Part shown: in pieces, positions 2,558 through 21,425 of the stretch | Position numbering within the stretch: the stretch's first letter is position 1 | Layout of the letters: every line of letters begins with the position of its first letter | NCBI GenBank assembly: GCA_022448725.1 | Contig: JAKUTR010000019.1 | Location: 1-40,603 of the forward strand | DNA from: SAR202 cluster bacterium | Lineage (GTDB): Bacteria > Chloroflexota > Dehalococcoidia > Lucifugimonadales > VXLM01 | DNA: 40,603 nucleotides | Direction: 5' to 3' | Notes under the pieces: model-generated | What the model was told of the DNA's origin: nothing | Databases searched by the model: none | What the model saw: only the letters and a program-made list of their open reading frames with translations | Position numbers and translations under genes: made by a program

Positions 2558-4057
2558 TCACTCGGCCAATACTTGCGTAAGTTTTACTAAAGTCCGAACA
2601 GGGACTCCTGTCGCTCCTTTGGGAGCGTGGCCCGTGGTGCTTTTTGCCATGGACGTGCCAGCAATGTCGAGATGCGCCCACTCAGCATCTCCAACGAACT
2701 CTCCAATGATCAGAGCTCCCGTTATGGAGCCAGCAGGTCGTCCCCCTGTATTCTTTATGTCAGCAATATCACTCTTGTACAAATCTTTGTACTCTTCAAA
2801 CGTTGGGAGATGCCACATTTTTTCACCGGTTTGGCGTCCACATTCAATGATGGCATCGGTTAGCAATTGGCTATTTCCGAAAACTCCTGTGCAAGTGTAG
2901 CCAAGGGTTGTGATAATCGCTCCTGTTAACGTCGCTACGTCAACTATCCGTGAGAATCCTTTTGAATGAGCGTAAGCAACCGTATCTGCAAGGACGAGTC
3001 TCCCCTCAGCGTCGGTGTTGTCAATTTCAATCGTTTTTCCTGTCATCGTTTTAACTACGTCTCCAGGGCGCTGGGCACTGCCACCGGGCATATTCTCCGC
3101 CGCAGCGACAAAGCCAGAAACATTGATTTTCGGTTTTAGGGCGGCAATAGCTTTCATTGCGGATATGACTGCAGCACCTCCGGCCATATCGCCTTTCATT
3201 GCACCCATATTGGCGGCGGGTTTGAGTGAAATGCCGCCACTGTCGAAAGTGATACCTTTGCCAACTATCGCAAGATTATTCGCTTCGTTCTCAGGATCCC
3301 CTTTATAGTGAAGTTCGATTAACTTTGGATCTTCTTTGCTTCCCTGGGCGACTCCTAGGAGTGCCCCCATACCAAGTTCCTGCATATGTTCGCGGTCCAT
3401 GATATTGCTGTCTAAATCTGACGTGGCTGCTATATCAAGTGCACGTTCTGAAAGGGTGGTGGGGGTCATATCATTTGCGGGAGTATTGACCATGTCACGA
3501 CATAGTGTCGTAGCTTCAACTAGGAGCTTTGCCTCTATAGAAGCTTCCTTAATTTCCTGGATTTTCGACTTGTCTATCTCGGTTATCTCTAGAACTTCGA
3601 GCTTGTCATTACTCTTTGTAGACTTGTAGTCGTTAAATCTGTATTTTCCTAGCAGAGTTCCTTCCACAACCGCCATTACTGACTCGCTGGTTTCCAGTCC
3701 TCCAGTATTTGTTCCATGTGTGATAGTAGCCATTTTCTTCACACCCAGCTTCTGGATATATCTTGCGACTGTCCCTGAGGTATTTCTGGCCACGTTAGAG
3801 TCAAACTTCTTGGGCGCCCCTAAGCCAAGTACAACCACACGCGGTGAGGATATTTTCCCGAACGTGTGAATGAGAGTTATCTCACCTTGCTTACCTTTGA
3901 TTTCACCCTCCCCAATTAGTGAAGAGATAGCCCCATCTAAAGCATCGTCGACAGCACCCGTTGCTCCGTCGAGACGTTTAACGTCCTCAAAGAGGTTTAC
4001 GACAATTGCTCCTACATCCCGAGTTGAGATATCTCCATGCACAACTTTAATCTGCAT
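2558..4057 (-). CDS. pepA: Leucyl aminopeptidase (peptidase family M17)
   Basis: A cytosolic exopeptidase that removes N-terminal residues, using two metal ions. From the chosen start it is 499 residues, normal for M17. The family signature NTDAEGRL is at 347-354, and the lysine and first metal-binding aspartate are in GKGITFDSGG (K267, D272). MKGDMAGGAAV adds further metal and structural residues. The N-terminal about 170 residues match the hexamer-forming M17 N-domain. I place the start at ATG 4057 because GGAG lies 9 bases upstream; an in-frame ATG at 4090 would add 11 residues but has no ribosome site. It is convergent with the barrel protein gene, about 57 bases from its stop. Confidence 0.95.
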   Translation of the reverse strand: MQIKVVHGDISTRDVGAIVVNLFEDVKRLDGATGAVDDALDGAISSLIGEGEIKGKQGEITLIHTFGKISSPRVVVLGLGAPKKFDSNVARNTSGTVARYIQKLGVKKMATITHGTNTGGLETSESVMAVVEGTLLGKYRFNDYKSTKSNDKLEVLEITEIDKSKIQEIKEASIEAKLLVEATTLCRDMVNTPANDMTPTTLSERALDIAATSDLDSNIMDREHMQELGMGALLGVAQGSKEDPKLIELHYKGDPENEANNLAIVGKGITFDSGGISLKPAANMGAMKGDMAGGAAVISAMKAIAALKPKINVSGFVAAAENMPGGSAQRPGDVVKTMTGKTIEIDNTDAEGRLVLADTVAYAHSKGFSRIVDVATLTGAIITTLGYTCTGVFGNSQLLTDAIIECGRQTGEKMWHLPTFEEYKDLYKSDIADIKNTGGRPAGSITGALIIGEFVGDAEWAHLDIAGTSMAKSTTGHAPKGATGVPVRTLVKLTQVLAE

Positions 4058-4116
4058 ATAGTTTGTCTCCGAATCCTTGGTATATCCCATTATAGGGCAG
4101 CGCAGGGTTAGAAGTT

Positions 4117-4198: not shown

Positions 4199-5485
4199 TT
4201 GAACCAAAGAACCTCAAGCGTAAAGGAACAGAGGCTACTGCAAAAAGCCGCTAAGTATATGCCCGGAGGCAGTAATGGCAACATGATCCATATGGATGTT
4301 GTCATCGAACGAGGAGAAGGCTCGCACGTCTGGGATGTTAGTGGAAATGAGTATGTTGACTATGCTCTTGGCTCTGGGCCCATGTTTATAGGCCACGCGC
4401 ACCCGGATGTTGTCAAAGAAGTTCAGGAAAGGATGACCAAAAGCTCAACATTTTTTGCGTTGGTTGAGCCTGCTATCGAACTGGCCGAGGAAATTTGTAG
4501 CGCGATGCCTTGCGCTGAAAATATTAGGTATGCTAGTGGAGGTTCTGAGGCAACCCTGTTCGCAATGCGAGCTGCTCGTGCCTACCGAGGGCGCGACAAA
4601 ATCATGAAATTTGAAGGTGGTTACCACGGTATGAGTGACTACGCTCTGATGAGTCTCGCCCCTTCGAACCCTGCTGACTTTCCTGACCCGGTTCCAGACT
4701 CGGCTGGTATCCCGAAATCAATACGGGATGAGATGTTAATTGCTCCATTTAATGATCTTGAAACCACTACGGCACTCATCGATCAGTATCATGACGAGCT
4801 TGGGGGAGTGATCGTAGAAGCTTTCCAAAGAGTTATTTCTCCAAAGCCTGGCTTCCTCAAGGGGTTGCGTGACATCACCAGCCACTATGGGATTCCGCTG
4901 ATCTTTGACGAGATTGTGACTGGCTTTCGGTTGTCCTATGGAGGCGCGCAATCGTACTATGGTGTGACTCCTGACCTGTGTTCCCTTGGCAAGATTGTTG
5001 GAGGAGGGTTTGCACTTTCTGCGGTAGCGGGTAAAGAGGAATTTATGAAAGTGTTCGATTCTGCGAACTCTAGCGAGACCGGCCCTATGCCTCAGGTCGG
5101 AACCCTTAATGGCAATCCAATTGCTACAGTTGCTGGCCTTTCTACTTTGAGGGTTCTTCGTGAGACCGCTGGTATTTATGAGAACACGTTTGCTAAAGGA
5201 CGCAGGTTACAGCAAGGTATTAGAGAGGTACTAGACAAGGCAGAAATTCCCGCCCAGGTTATTGGTCATGATGCGCTTTTCGATGTGTATTTCACTGGGG
5301 ATGAGATATACGATTATCGTGGGACTCTAAAGGCTGATAAATCAAAGACTATTATGCTTAATAGTCTTCTTCTGGAAAGAGGGATTTTTAAGGGGGAAAC
5401 GAAATTTTATGTTTCTACTGCCCATTCAGATGCCGATATTGATTTCACTCTTGATGCCTTCAACTCCGCCGTTGGTGAACTGTAA
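4199..5485 (+). CDS. Class III PLP aminotransferase, glutamate-1-semialdehyde aminomutase-like
   Basis: A 428-residue fold-type I PLP enzyme. Visible elements are the entrance region YALGSGPMFIGHAHPDV, the cofactor phosphate motif SGGSEATLFAMRAARA (114-129), the pyridine-binding FDEIVTGFR (aspartate 237), and the Schiff-base lysine K265 in SLGKIVGGG. Overall layout and length match HemL and the many HemL-like transaminases. Being alone, with no heme biosynthesis neighbour, it is more safely called an HemL-like aminotransferase of unknown substrate. The start is TTG 4199 with GAGGAG 6 bases upstream. Nothing in the active-site motifs looks damaged. Confidence 0.88.
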   Translation: MNQRTSSVKEQRLLQKAAKYMPGGSNGNMIHMDVVIERGEGSHVWDVSGNEYVDYALGSGPMFIGHAHPDVVKEVQERMTKSSTFFALVEPAIELAEEICSAMPCAENIRYASGGSEATLFAMRAARAYRGRDKIMKFEGGYHGMSDYALMSLAPSNPADFPDPVPDSAGIPKSIRDEMLIAPFNDLETTTALIDQYHDELGGVIVEAFQRVISPKPGFLKGLRDITSHYGIPLIFDEIVTGFRLSYGGAQSYYGVTPDLCSLGKIVGGGFALSAVAGKEEFMKVFDSANSSETGPMPQVGTLNGNPIATVAGLSTLRVLRETAGIYENTFAKGRRLQQGIREVLDKAEIPAQVIGHDALFDVYFTGDEIYDYRGTLKADKSKTIMLNSLLLERGIFKGETKFYVSTAHSDADIDFTLDAFNSAVGEL

Positions 5486-5924
5486 GATTCCGTAAGGAGC
5501 AAAATGGGCTGGCTCACGTATCTCAGCCAGCCTACCAAGCCTTGGGTGGTTATCGAGCCATGGACTTGTCTAAGATAAATACCAGAAAGATTCAGGGGGT
5601 ATATTTACGATATACGTTACATATATGCCCTTAATCGGTTGGTTTGTTGCATATAGGTCGTTGAATTGATAAGAAGCGTTAAATAATATCTCAAAACCCC
5701 TTGACATCGTGCGGATTCGAACGTACCGTACCGTCTTGGGGGGCTAGGTAGTTACTTGAGTGCTAGTTTCGGAGCTTCTGTAGAGTTCGCTAGAACTCTG
5801 CAGTTAGTCTTTGCTGGTCGATTCTCTTCTAACCTCTCAACCGCATGGGCGCCTAGGCGCTTTGCAAAATAAGTGACTGTCCCGGATGAAGCGGGGGTGT
5901 CACGAAAACTTAGGGAGGTGTTAC
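5486..5924. other. Long intergenic region with inverted repeats before the MBL-like gene
   Basis: No convincing gene is seen in these 439 bases. From left to right it holds a hairpin GGCTGGCT/AGCCAGCC (5507-5514, 5525-5532) just after the aminotransferase stop, probably a weak terminator without a T-run. TTGACA (5701-5706) is followed 17 bases later by a poor -10, TACCGT. There is an 18-base dyad AGAGTTC-GCTA-GAACTCT (5782-5799) and a 12-base perfect palindrome GCGCCTAGGCGC (5849-5860). The last two lie between the possible promoter and the MBL-like gene and could be operator sites. Confidence 0.45.
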
Positions 5925-6761
5925 ATGCAGCTGGGTACAACTTATGTCGACGTTGTAAGTGATGGTACCTATCATGTTGATGGCGGTGCGGTGTTTGGGC
6001 TCGTTCCCAAGGTTGAATGGGATATGTATCTTAAACCTGATCGCAAGAACCGAGTTCGTTTGGGGCTGAACTGTTTACTTATCCGGATGCCGAATATGAA
6101 TATACTGGTCGGCACGGGAGCGGGTACTAAACGGGCTGATAAATTAAAGGATACGTATGGTTTGAACGGGAACAAGCTGCAAAAAGGGCTCAAGAAGTTG
6201 GGTATAACCTCTCGGGATATAGACGTTGTGATCTTGCCTAACTTGCAGTTTGATACAGCTGGCGGCGCGACCAAGTTGGATCGATCAGGGAACGTGGTTC
6301 CAACTTTTCAGAAAGCCCAGCATCTTGTACAACGTGCTGCTTGGGATGAAGCTAATAATGTAACGGAAAGGAACCGGAAGCTATACAATGCCGACGATTT
6401 TGTACCCTTGGAGGAACAAGGTCTTCTAACCTTACTTGATGAGGACCATCAAATCGCTCCAGGTGTGCGTACTCAAGTGACTGGTGGATATACGGCAGGC
6501 CATCAGATTGTCCTTGTAGAAGTTGGCAGCGAGCGTATTGCGTTTATGTCCAACTTGGTCCCAACACCCTTTCACACTGCGTTGTCTACGATTACTGCAT
6601 TTGACAAGGATCCGAGTGCCGTTCTTGAACAGAAACGACGTATTGTTGGAATGGCAGTTAGTGAAGGTTGGCTAATGATTTTCGGGCATGCCAACGAACA
6701 AGTAGGAGCTTACATCGAGGAACGGAACGGGAAGTCTCAACTCCTACCAGTTGCCATTTAG
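5925..6761 (+). CDS. Metallo-beta-lactamase-fold protein with degraded metal site (probable pseudoenzyme)
   Basis: A 278-residue protein that follows the MBL-fold hydrolase template from end to end (VSDGTYHVDGGAVFGLVPK, LGLNCLLIR, VVPTF, AGHQIVLVEVGSE, LVPTPFHT, EGWLMIFGH). The metal ligands are mostly replaced. The HxHxDH motif is NLQFDT (N106, Q108, D110, T111), the fourth histidine is Y189 (GGYTAGH), the bridging aspartate is N210 (MSNLVPT), and the early DTG is GTG (63-65). D110 and H255 remain. Metal-dependent hydrolysis is therefore unlikely; a binding or regulatory role is possible (inference). The start is ATG 5925 with GGGAGGTG just upstream; an earlier in-frame ATG at 5886 lacks a ribosome site. 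A strong terminator follows, so it is a single-gene unit. Confidence 0.85.
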   Translation: MQLGTTYVDVVSDGTYHVDGGAVFGLVPKVEWDMYLKPDRKNRVRLGLNCLLIRMPNMNILVGTGAGTKRADKLKDTYGLNGNKLQKGLKKLGITSRDIDVVILPNLQFDTAGGATKLDRSGNVVPTFQKAQHLVQRAAWDEANNVTERNRKLYNADDFVPLEEQGLLTLLDEDHQIAPGVRTQVTGGYTAGHQIVLVEVGSERIAFMSNLVPTPFHTALSTITAFDKDPSAVLEQKRRIVGMAVSEGWLMIFGHANEQVGAYIEERNGKSQLLPVAI

Positions 6762-6783: not shown

Positions 6784-6820
6784 GAAAGGCGATTCAATCA
6801 GAATCGCCTTTCTTATTTTT
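6784..6820 (+). terminator. Rho-independent terminator after the MBL-like gene
   Basis: GAAAGGCGATTC (6784-6795) and GAATCGCCTTTC (6801-6812) form a perfect 12-bp stem with a 5-base loop, followed by TTATTTTT. It ends only 12 bases before the start codon of the next gene, so that gene must be read through it or carry a promoter inside the preceding gene. Confidence 0.9.
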
Positions 6821-10133: not shown

Positions 10134-11540
10134 CTAGTTAAGTTGGTATTCTCGAGTAGACACTATAAGTTGCAGCATGCGTAGCACTCTATATTCGTTG
10201 TCTACTCGTTTTGATTCGTCGTTCAGGTCGATAACCCGTTCTGCCTCTGCGAAATTTAGGAGCCCTAATATTGCTTCATCGCCGAGGGGTGCAGGTCGGA
10301 CCATTCTTACACATTCACCTACGAACTCTGCTGGAGACAAAGGCCCCATCTGCTGTAGTCTCTCAATAATGAGTCGAATACCCGGCTTCTCTGTATCGTC
10401 TAGTTCGTCGACAGCGAAGTTAATCCGAGAGTTAAGTGTGCCCCCATCTATCCAACCCTGACCGGTCTGCCAACCTTCAACGGTCAGAGGGTTCATGAGG
10501 CTTTGCCCCATCTGTCCAGCCATGCCACCAAAGCGGCTGAAGCCTATTGCAGGAGTTTGATAGTCACCGGTTAGCTTTAAAATCCCTGTGACAAGTTCGG
10601 TAGGACTTTTTACTCTAAGAAATCGTGAGTGTTTGAAGAATTCAGAGTTGAAAAGGGTTCTCAAAATCGTGCATATGTCACCATTAGATGCTAAGTAGGC
10701 TTGGACGAGGAGATCAATTGCTTGTGGGTCTTTCGGGGGGATCTCATTCCATGAAGAGACTGATGGTTCATCTGCTACGAAAAAACTATATAGATGACGG
10801 GCGATGAATATTGCCGTGGCGGGTTGCATCGAGATGATGTCAACGATATCTACTCCATCAAAGCTACCTGAGTGTCCGAGAAATTCTTTCTGTGACGTGT
10901 CATGTTCCTCAGGTTGATAAACGAAAGCTGAAGGATAGCCACCATATTTACTGCCAGCGCCTGGGATGGGTGTTTCTAGTGTCCACCCTGTGAATGCGTA
11001 AGCGGCTGCTTTGACGTCGGGCTCGGTGTAATTTCCTACCCCCATTGAGAAGAGTTCGAGCAATTCCCTGCCATAGTTTTCGTTAGGCTCATCTTTAAGG
11101 TTTTCGTTGTTGTCGAGCCAAAATAGCATGGCTGGGTCTCGAGATAACTCTGTAAGGATGTTGCGGATATCGGTCATCCCAATATTGCGGAACATTTTGA
11201 TTTGGTCTTGAGAGGATGGGGGATGAGCTGACTTCGCAAGGCCAGTGGCAAATACGTGATGCCAAAATAGAGTCGTCTTTTCCTGAAGGTGACGTTCAGA
11301 GTTGATCATCCGGTGCCACCAGTCCGGTCCAAACCCTTGCTGGCCCGTACCGTACCATCGTTCGAGAACATCGGTTTCTACATCTTGGACTAATTCTGGG
11401 TGGAGAAGGTCTTCAACGACTTCCGCATATGGTCTTTCGGCAAGCTTCTCTAACTCGTCTAGCCGCACTCCAAAGCCAGCTCGGCGCATGAGATGGGCAT
11501 AAAGGTCAAGGTCAGGAGTTGTGGAAGCTACCATGTGCAT
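10134..11540 (-). CDS. DUF1800 domain protein
   Basis: A 468-residue protein of the DUF1800 family. The family hallmarks are visible: HLMRRAGFGV near the N-terminus, W-x-H-R-M...EKTTLFWHHVFATG, ENYGRELLELFSMG, a 'DVKAAAYAFTGWT' segment, and the C-terminal QTGQGWIDGG and LIVSTREYQLN. The biochemical function of DUF1800 is not established. It usually sits next to a DUF1501 protein, often with a secretion signal; here both the signal and a DUF1501 neighbour are missing. Instead it lies between a sulfatase remnant and an NHL gene, all on the minus strand. The start is either ATG 11540 or the ATG two codons later. Confidence 0.92.
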   Translation of the reverse strand: MHMVASTTPDLDLYAHLMRRAGFGVRLDELEKLAERPYAEVVEDLLHPELVQDVETDVLERWYGTGQQGFGPDWWHRMINSERHLQEKTTLFWHHVFATGLAKSAHPPSSQDQIKMFRNIGMTDIRNILTELSRDPAMLFWLDNNENLKDEPNENYGRELLELFSMGVGNYTEPDVKAAAYAFTGWTLETPIPGAGSKYGGYPSAFVYQPEEHDTSQKEFLGHSGSFDGVDIVDIISMQPATAIFIARHLYSFFVADEPSVSSWNEIPPKDPQAIDLLVQAYLASNGDICTILRTLFNSEFFKHSRFLRVKSPTELVTGILKLTGDYQTPAIGFSRFGGMAGQMGQSLMNPLTVEGWQTGQGWIDGGTLNSRINFAVDELDDTEKPGIRLIIERLQQMGPLSPAEFVGECVRMVRPAPLGDEAILGLLNFAEAERVIDLNDESKRVDNEYRVLRMLQLIVSTREYQLN

Positions 11541-11649
11541 CTCCTGTGCGAATCGTATTCCACACCCGCTGCGTTTGCAAACGTGTTTGAATATACGAGT
11601 TGGAGGAATGATTGTCGGTTAGGCTAGGGGGGACAGTTTGTTCATATAT

Positions 11650-11880
11650 AGACACAGGCGTGGGCAGTGTTTCGTTGAAAACACGGTCTTCATGTGTACG
11701 TGAGAAGGCTCCAGTCATCAACTCTCGTCGGGCGGGGATGCACGAAGGCGTACTAATGTAGCTAATACCGTTGCCGATTAGTTGATCTGGAGTAGAGGGT
11801 AGTACTACTGGGTGTCCAAGTAAGCCAACTAATCGCCCAAACCAGTGATCGGCACATATCAAAAGAACATTGATGGGGAC
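11650..11880 (-). pseudogene. Fragment of a sulfatase N-terminus, in frame behind the intact sulfatase
   Basis: About 75 codons matching the start of the neighbouring sulfatase: LLICADHWFGRLVGLLGHP, then DQLIGNGISY, then TPSCIPARRELMTGAFSRTH and RVFNETLP, after which homology stops. It keeps the C-x-P-x-R active-site signature but lacks the catalytic core, a start with a ribosome site, and about five residues around the loop before the cysteine. It begins right after the sulfatase TAA (11893-11895), in the same frame and with no further stop until 11512. Bases 11661-11752 are 91/92 identical to 13137-13228 in the intact gene, whereas the flanking homologous part is only roughly 70 per cent identical. 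It is best explained as a decayed paralogue or partial duplication. Confidence 0.85.
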
Positions 11881-11892
11881 GGTCCAAGGTCC

Positions 11893-13374
11893 TTACATTC
11901 TCGAAGGCATGTTACTGGTAGGGCCTTCGTGGCCGAATCGCAGGCCCCGTTGGTTACCGAATGCTCGTGTATACAGTGGGTGGGGCACAGGATCTGGCTC
12001 AGGAGTGCCAATTAACTCACCATTCTCAATCCAGTCTAGATCATTACCGTACATGTTCTGCATTAGCAGGTTTGTAAGTTGACCGAGGATTTCCGCATGT
12101 GTGGCGTCGTCCGATATATCCTTTTGTTCCCGCGGATCTTCTTTCAGGTCAAACATTTGAAGATGGTTGCCTTCCGGATAGTAGATTAGTTTGTATCGAC
12201 TATCCCGAACCATGCGAGTGGGGCGTTGGTCTTCGCCATGTTCGCCATATATGTATGCTCGGGTCTTTTCACCTGTAAGCGAAAGACCTTCGACTGTTTT
12301 GGGAGTCTCGATTCCGCAGATTTCGGCTAGCGTAGGGAATACGTCTGCTTGAACAGCTAGGCGATCATCCCGCAGTCCCTGACCGATATCAGTCCGATTA
12401 GCTGGAGGCATCAGTATCATTGGGATTTTTGCCGAATTCTCATACATGACGCTCTTAGCAAAGAGTCCGTGGTTACCCAACATGTCCCCATGGTCTGAAG
12501 TAAACATGATCGCTGTGTTATCCAAGATACCTTCTTCTCGGAGCAGTCCAATAACTAGACGAATTTGATGGTCGATGTGCGTTGCTGACGCGTAGAAAGC
12601 TTGTCTAGCCATCCGTAGTGCATCTGTAGAGTACATACCTCTGCCTTGAGGCCGGGCTCGCAGTGCAAACGGCCAGGAGTCGGCGCTAGCTGACCAGTCT
12701 CCATAGTAAGGTTCGTCGATTACAACGTCCCGGTACATATCCAGATATTGCTGTAGGGGGGCAAGTGGAGGGTGAGGCGGACTGAAAGACATGTACCAAA
12801 AGCCCGGCTTGCGTGGATCGCGGCGGGCTATGAACTTGGACATCTCACGGACTGTCCAATTCGTTTGGTGGAGGTGTTCGGGTAAGTGCCATGGTCGGAC
12901 AGTGTAGTCATTGTTAGACATACCATGTCCATACTCCTCACCAGAAAAACCCTGCTCTTGCAGAAATAACTCGTAGTCGTCTTTGCTCATCCCAAACTGG
13001 TGGCGACCTTCTTCTAGAACGAGTACATCATCAAAGCCGATGCGGTCGCGTTGAGGGTAAACATGAAGCTTACCAACAGCGTAAGCTTGATAGCCGTTAT
13101 CACGGAACGTCTGAGCCATAGTAGGCAGATTTGGCATGGGCAGTGTTTCGTTGAAAACACGGTCTCCATGTGTACGTGAGAAGGCTCCAGTCATCAACTC
13201 TCGTCGGGCGGGGATGCACGAAGGCGTAGTAGTGTATGCGTTTGTGTACGCAACACCATTGCCGATCAGTTGATCCAGGGTAGGGGTTAGCACAGTTGGG
13301 TGCCCTAGTGCTCCAACTAGATCTCCGAACCAATGGTCAACACAGATGAGAACTACGTTTGGTCGGTTAGGCAT
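11893..13374 (-). CDS. Sulfatase (alkaline-phosphatase superfamily, type I formylglycine)
   Basis: A 493-residue sulfate-ester hydrolase. It opens PNVVLICVDHW, with metal aspartate D13. C53 in the C-x-P-x-R signature (SCIPARR, 52-58) is the residue oxidised to formylglycine. The second metal-site motif FTSDHGDMLGNHG is intact, followed by the family C-terminal part YKLIYYPEGNHLQMFDLKEDP. No signal peptide is present, so it is probably cytosolic and acts on imported substrate; the substrate is unknown, although the 'DMLG.HGLF.K' form is common in choline-sulfatase-like and arylsulfatase-like groups. No formylglycine-generating enzyme is in the window. It lies 17 bases upstream-to-downstream from the AI-2E permease gene on the same strand. 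A decayed paralogue follows it in frame. Confidence 0.93.
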   Translation of the reverse strand: MPNRPNVVLICVDHWFGDLVGALGHPTVLTPTLDQLIGNGVAYTNAYTTTPSCIPARRELMTGAFSRTHGDRVFNETLPMPNLPTMAQTFRDNGYQAYAVGKLHVYPQRDRIGFDDVLVLEEGRHQFGMSKDDYELFLQEQGFSGEEYGHGMSNNDYTVRPWHLPEHLHQTNWTVREMSKFIARRDPRKPGFWYMSFSPPHPPLAPLQQYLDMYRDVVIDEPYYGDWSASADSWPFALRARPQGRGMYSTDALRMARQAFYASATHIDHQIRLVIGLLREEGILDNTAIMFTSDHGDMLGNHGLFAKSVMYENSAKIPMILMPPANRTDIGQGLRDDRLAVQADVFPTLAEICGIETPKTVEGLSLTGEKTRAYIYGEHGEDQRPTRMVRDSRYKLIYYPEGNHLQMFDLKEDPREQKDISDDATHAEILGQLTNLLMQNMYGNDLDWIENGELIGTPEPDPVPHPLYTRAFGNQRGLRFGHEGPTSNMPSRM

Positions 13375-21216: not shown

Positions 21217-21394
21217 GCAGCGTGCCGAGACCTCAACCTCGAAGGTCTTACTGACATCAAGCGCAAGACGTTGATCGGACTCGATCTCTTCATGAGATCC
21301 TACCGCTGCGGGACAGTGCCGGATTTTGACCGGCTTCCTCGTTTTTAGCCTCTCGGAAGTTACTCAAATTACCACTTTGCTGAGAGGCACCTGC
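21217..21394 (-). promoter_or_regulatory. Cobalamin riboswitch
   Basis: On the minus strand the closing stem GCAGGTGCC (21394-21386) pairs with GGCACGCTGC (21226-21217) with one bulged G. Inside is a TCTC/GAGA stem, then the hallmark core: GCCGGTCAAAATCCGGC (21334-21318), a hairpin, joined directly to ACTGTCCCGCAGC (21317-21305). This closely follows the B12 aptamer consensus 'CCGGT..AA.TCCGG..CTG.CCCGC'. It lies upstream of btuF-btuC-btuD and is followed by an intrinsic terminator. The 5' and 3' limits are estimated from the closing stem. Confidence 0.9.
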
Positions 21395-21425
21395 GCCGAC
21401 ATTCAATTGTTAGTGTGCGTTGTGA

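Follow-up and report, generated by a model that had tools for sequence, protein, structure and literature searches.

Lactonases with the metallo-beta-lactamase (MBL) fold, such as AaL and GcL, hold two metals by means of five histidines and two aspartates (PMC6062542, PMC11423328), and AaL, GcL, AiiA, AidC and methyl parathion hydrolase are all dinuclear enzymes. Likewise, Bacillus YtnP (NF047919; PMC9201388) carries the HXHXDH motif, and the ligands are present in the Staphylococcus aureus structure PDB 3esh. MBL folds that have lost their metal ligands are also on record. INTS9 and CPSF100 are MBL pseudoenzymes with a non-catalytic role beside the active INTS11 and CPSF73 (PMC7980224), and cyanobacterial Flv1/Flv2 contain an MBL domain without canonical metal ligands that is maintained by selection (PMC4390876). 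INTS9 and Flv1/Flv2 show that MBL folds can persist metal-free, but beside active paralogs. Loss of activity among orthologs has been described for the fungal Ssd1/Dis3L2 pseudonucleases, in which nuclease activity disappeared on at least four occasions, with conservation of a different part of the protein (PMC8097288).

The DNA analysed here (the window, 40,603 nt) comes from a 2.1 Mb genome of the SAR202 group (Chloroflexota, Dehalococcoidia), in which it is contig 11. The original prediction, made from the letters of this DNA, was that the window encodes an MBL-fold protein with an intact frame, a good ribosome site and its own strong terminator, from which nearly all metal ligands had been lost. 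Translation confirmed a frame of 278 codons that is open throughout, and both flanking signals were found as described (Table 1). The terminator has a 12-bp stem followed by a T tail (dG -19.2 kcal/mol, z -5.4); chance alone would give 1.2 terminator-like sites in the region. Another strong hairpin (5778-5803, + strand; 11-bp stem, z -4.2 with flanks, weak T tail) was noted in the 400-bp gap 5' of the gene, and is perhaps a leader element or the terminator of the aminotransferase.

Table 1. Features of the MBL-fold gene and its conserved neighbours (positions are those of the window).
Feature	Position	Strand	Remarks
Leucyl aminopeptidase (M17)	2558..4090	-	Conserved syntenic neighbour
Class-III aminotransferase	4199..5485	+	Upstream; synteny conserved across many SAR202 genomes
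Shine-Dalgarno sequence AGGGAGGT	5912..5919	+	ATG 6 nt further on
YtnP-like MBL-fold protein	5925..6761	+	278 aa; five of seven dinuclear-site ligands gone
Residues 39-49, DRKNRVRLGLN	6039..6071	+	D39, N42, R43 and N49 invariant in intact and eroded orthologs
G63	6111..6113	+	Replaces the Asp of the DTG motif (GTG)
NLQFDT, residues 106-111	6240..6257	+	Stands where HxHxDH is expected; D110 kept
Y189	6489..6491	+	Replaces a metal-ligand His
N210	6552..6554	+	Replaces the bridging Asp
H217	6573..6575	+	Invariant in 37/37 intact and 68/68 strongly eroded orthologs; usually Gln in other orders
H255	6687..6689	+	Last metal-ligand His, kept; Leu in same-genus relatives
Intrinsic terminator	6784..6812	+	Stem-loop, then T-rich tail

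The predicted end-to-end likeness to MBL hydrolases was borne out. The 278-aa product passed the Pfam Lactamase_B model (PF00753; 1.2e-7, 32.3 bits against a cut-off of 22.7), matched 3esh over its full length (1.8e-30), and had YtnP (NF047919) as its best NCBIfam model (2.3e-46). Its score of 158 bits falls far short of the equivalog cut-off of 425 bits for that model, and SAR202 orthologs with all ligands in place also reach just 187-218 bits. Structure prediction, which had been proposed as a check, gave an AlphaFold2 model of the MBL-lactonase fold with a pLDDT of 95.5. Its top structural match was 3esh (Z 38.2, rmsd 1.6 A over 270 residues, 24% identity in the structure alignment), followed in order by methyl parathion hydrolase, AidC, pyridoxolactonase, GcL and AiiA, with the MBL lactonase matches spanning Z 38-26. 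On this model the fold is intact. In sequence, YtnP, 3esh and the product share an N-terminal block (DGG..FG..P+..W) and a PT..H motif after the bridging Asp; AaL, GcL, AiiA, AidC and methyl parathion hydrolase resemble it in fold and in the positions of the ligands.

Where it departs from these enzymes is in the ligands themselves. The seven positions read N106, Q108, D110, T111, Y189, N210 and H255, so that the set HxHxDH + H + D + H is absent and only D110, from the HxHxDH motif, and the last His, H255, are retained; these readings, as well as GTG for DTG, agree with the prediction in every residue. The DTG Asp does not count among the metal ligands. Since the 16-sequence alignment of the product and its 15 nearest orthologs contains no internal gaps, misplacement of the ligand columns as an alignment artefact was ruled out. 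With five of the seven ligands gone, a stable dinuclear site in this protein is very unlikely, and its sequence very likely precludes the binding of two zinc ions. It could be argued that the first site was lost and that one metal at D110/H111/D210/H255 suffices, as in the mono-metal B2 MBLs. The second site is indeed kept in 45 of 97 eroded sequences when D or E is allowed (for example NQDHPDH and SHEHPDH), and a mono-metal form of GcL D122N has been solved. The product studied here, however, has also lost H111 and D210, so that both of its sites are broken, and elsewhere there are seven distinct patterns in which it is the second site that is broken and the first that is kept; several lineages lose both. 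A mononuclear enzyme is accordingly an improbable account of the family.

Relatives were sought across the SAR202 group, most of the compared genomes being metagenome assemblies. A single-protein search of the genome contigs gave no match, and a profile built from the 16-row alignment did find relatives. The gene was present in 89 of 98 genomes of the same order, including 47 of the 50 of high quality, and was usually single-copy. It was missing from three near-complete genomes, all of one family, so its role is not essential everywhere. Named relatives, with up to 68-69% identity, belong to SAR202 or Dehalococcoidia metagenome-assembled genomes; among cultivated strains, Candidatus Lucifugimonas marina JH1073 has an ortholog too. 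A search for literature joining SAR202 with metallo-beta-lactamases returned a single, unrelated paper. A phage or mobile origin was rejected, no relative having been found among viral contigs.

The ancestral gene order (leucyl aminopeptidase < > class-III aminotransferase > MBL < MtaB > FabF) is recognisable in many genomes; the window keeps the aminopeptidase and the aminotransferase, and a short-chain dehydrogenase stands where the MtaB side was. The gene is thus a positional ortholog that is near-universal in SAR202. Synteny yielded no functional partner, as the neighbours are housekeeping genes. Elsewhere in the window, a 489-aa open frame (1031-2497, +) had no Pfam match at 1e-5, a cobalamin riboswitch (21249-21409, -) scored 40.8 bits, over the Rfam gathering score, and a sulfatase gene (11893-13374, -) was adjoined by a truncated second copy of its 5' part (11512-11862, -). 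The two sulfatase copies share 104 nt at 96% identity, which suggests a recent partial duplication with decay.

Among 142 distinct SAR202 orthologs, 37 were intact, 68 lacked three or more ligands and 15 lacked five or more. Since 18 of 19 sampled orthologs from other orders of the class were intact (the remaining one having a single D-to-E change), the intact state is ancestral. Changes between the intact and eroded states numbered at least 15-17 on the gene tree, from which the ligand columns had been removed, and individual ligands were lost 7-18 times on it. The tree of the neighbouring mtaB gene required at least 12 changes, which makes the count independent of the MBL protein's own tree; as parsimony minima, these loss counts assume that no copy regained all seven ligands. 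The mosaic of intact and eroded copies might instead reflect paralogs or horizontal transfer, in place of repeated loss in one ortholog, and a more distant, also altered paralog does occur in a few genomes. Most genomes are single-copy, however, the same syntenic slot holds intact and eroded copies alike, and the neighbour-gene tree yields a similar number of changes, which leaves this explanation very little room. The second paralog itself (family f19, G010; L086-L089, L149 and L150) shows ligand patterns such as HHEHPTG and DFEYPMG.

More than 40 ligand patterns were seen among the eroded orthologs, with replacements that vary by lineage (Pro or Tyr for H189, Gln or Ala for H108, Glu or Ser for D110, Asn for D210). 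In 26 tips Y189 is found together with N210; a coupling of Y189/N210 as against P189/D210 looked clear by tips, but independent pairs are too few to bear it out. A Lucifugimonas-type clade of 24 distinct sequences, which includes L045/L215 of Candidatus Lucifugimonas marina (L045 reads HASHYNH), has a fixed set of H106, Ala108, Ser/Phe110, H111, Y189, N210 and H255, of which H106, H111 and H255 may perhaps, judging from the residues, form a rebuilt three-His metal site. Same-genus copies, the close homologues that were to be aligned as a check on the prediction, are also altered (DLQFDT/Y/H/L, that is, DQDTYHL at the seven positions).

Five ligand changes and the loss of the DTG Asp within one copy might also point to a gene that is decaying in this genome or lineage. 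The prediction had named the pattern that would betray such decay, namely close homologues keeping the histidines with the changes in this genome alone, and this pattern was looked for and was not found. The open frame, the ribosome site and the terminator are all present, the same-genus copies are equally altered with a dN/dS of 0.064 between two of them, residues other than the ligands are strongly conserved, and the gene has been retained through the depth of the order. Decay specific to this genome was ruled out by the altered same-genus copies and their dN/dS, and decay in any form is hardly credible. The earlier claim that selection is keeping a ligand-poor protein is supported.

This constraint extends across the eroded orthologs. 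In other eroded close pairs dN/dS was 0.02-0.08, the same range as in intact pairs (the set leaves out the misaligned pairs L069/L074 and L139/L141). Mean column entropy without the ligand columns was 1.42 bits in intact and 1.36 bits in strongly eroded copies, and divergence relative to the neighbouring proteins was similar in intact and eroded pairs at matched distance (0.98 and 1.00, respectively, for MtaB; 1.56 and 1.50 for FabF). Each of the 68 strongly eroded copies has retained ten near-invariant residues (D13, D19, W32, D39, N42, R43, N49, Q136, P213 and H217) wherever the column is present, as have all 37 intact copies save for one P213A. These residues are at least as conserved in eroded copies as in the outgroups, several being less conserved in other orders. 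These sequence comparisons show purifying selection outside the ligands to be unchanged after ligand loss. As a control, other MBL-fold genes were checked in eight SAR202 genomes, and 46 of 47 kept HxHxDH. A general erosion of MBL proteins across SAR202 was thereby ruled out, the loss being specific to the YtnP-like family and not a property of the whole clade. The sole control gene without the motif, L266 (G086:C1:2416500-2417900), has an open frame of 812 aa. Beyond the original prediction, the loss was repeated at least 12-17 times across SAR202, was confined to one MBL family and was decoupled from constraint on the rest of the protein.

One explanation for such constraint is that the protein is still an enzyme with a changed chemistry, either a metal-free or a differently metallated hydrolase or lyase that would use the invariant H217, H193, D19, W32 and R43. 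Certain clades would add to these a rebuilt site, either three-His or Tyr/Asn. The absolute conservation of residues in the pocket region, the joint occurrence of Y189 and N210, the fixation of H106/H111/H255 in the Lucifugimonas-type sequences and a dN/dS that matches the low values of intact copies are all compatible with this. On the other hand, the ligand patterns differ from lineage to lineage with no common new catalytic set at these positions, and independent contrasts between Y189 and loss of D210 are too few to bear out a link. Changed chemistry is consequently rated as unlikely, although clearly less so than the alternatives above. For mildly altered members the case is different: GcL D122N, a single-ligand variant at the equivalent of D110, keeps most of its activity (PMC11423328), so these members may still be enzymes.

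The data demonstrate a fold that has been kept, ligands that have been lost repeatedly, purifying selection elsewhere in the protein and an intact ancestral state. The product is probably an ortholog of YtnP-type MBL lactonases that has turned into a pseudoenzyme with a metal-independent role; as far as sequence can tell, it is an orthologous pseudoenzyme in the sense of having lost catalytic residues under continued purifying selection. The SAR202 ancestor had a complete dinuclear site and presumably hydrolysed a lactone or ester. The same ancestral protein would also have had a second, metal-independent job, which would account for the retained residues. The metal-dependent activity would then have become dispensable many times, with ligands being replaced one by one, while selection on the second job, as seen at the sequence level, went on unabated. 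The second job would most likely be small-molecule binding in the retained pocket, or a dimer or partner role acting via the invariant N-terminal block and H217. The acyl-binding pocket of AaL is lined by M20, M22 and W26 near the N-terminus, and its dimer is made by a loop at 33-41 (PMC6062542). The pocket-lining residues have a likeness in the SAR202 protein, where the conserved 13-49 block, judged by position, would do much as the AaL N-terminus does. Ligand binding or a dimer or partner role is favoured as the probable function over altered catalysis. The fuller proposal of a bifunctional SAR202 lactonase-fold protein, whose metal-independent function is near-universal and whose catalysis was dropped a dozen or more times, is made tentatively and is given a little less than an even chance.

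INTS9 and CPSF100 have likewise kept the MBL fold and lost metal ligands, but they pair with an active paralog, whereas the SAR202 protein is the only copy and its loss recurs in orthologs. Flv1/Flv2 belong to a duplicated family with ligand-bearing partners (Flv3/Flv4) and have another domain context. The closest logical precedent is Ssd1/Dis3L2, for its second-function model, although this is a eukaryotic RNase II of unrelated fold with fewer independent losses.

Pseudoenzymes usually have a single origin, arising after duplication next to an active partner. The SAR202 family differs from this: its ortholog, in most cases the only copy, has been stripped of its catalytic metals many times over within an abundant marine clade, and intact sister lineages serve as controls. 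The family therefore amounts to a natural experiment, run in replicate, on what the remainder of an enzyme is for. If the proposed account is true, no orthologous conversion of an enzyme into a pseudoenzyme known to us in bacteria would have been repeated more often, and the clade-specific rebuilt sites (Tyr189/Asn210 and three-His) would be further experiments of nature. The protein is testable, since one altered ortholog occurs in the cultivated strain Candidatus Lucifugimonas marina (PMC10444878). The opening of lactone rings in organic matter of the deep sea has been proposed for SAR202 bacteria (PMC5395668), and activity should not be inferred from MBL or lactonase annotations in this group before the ligands have been checked.
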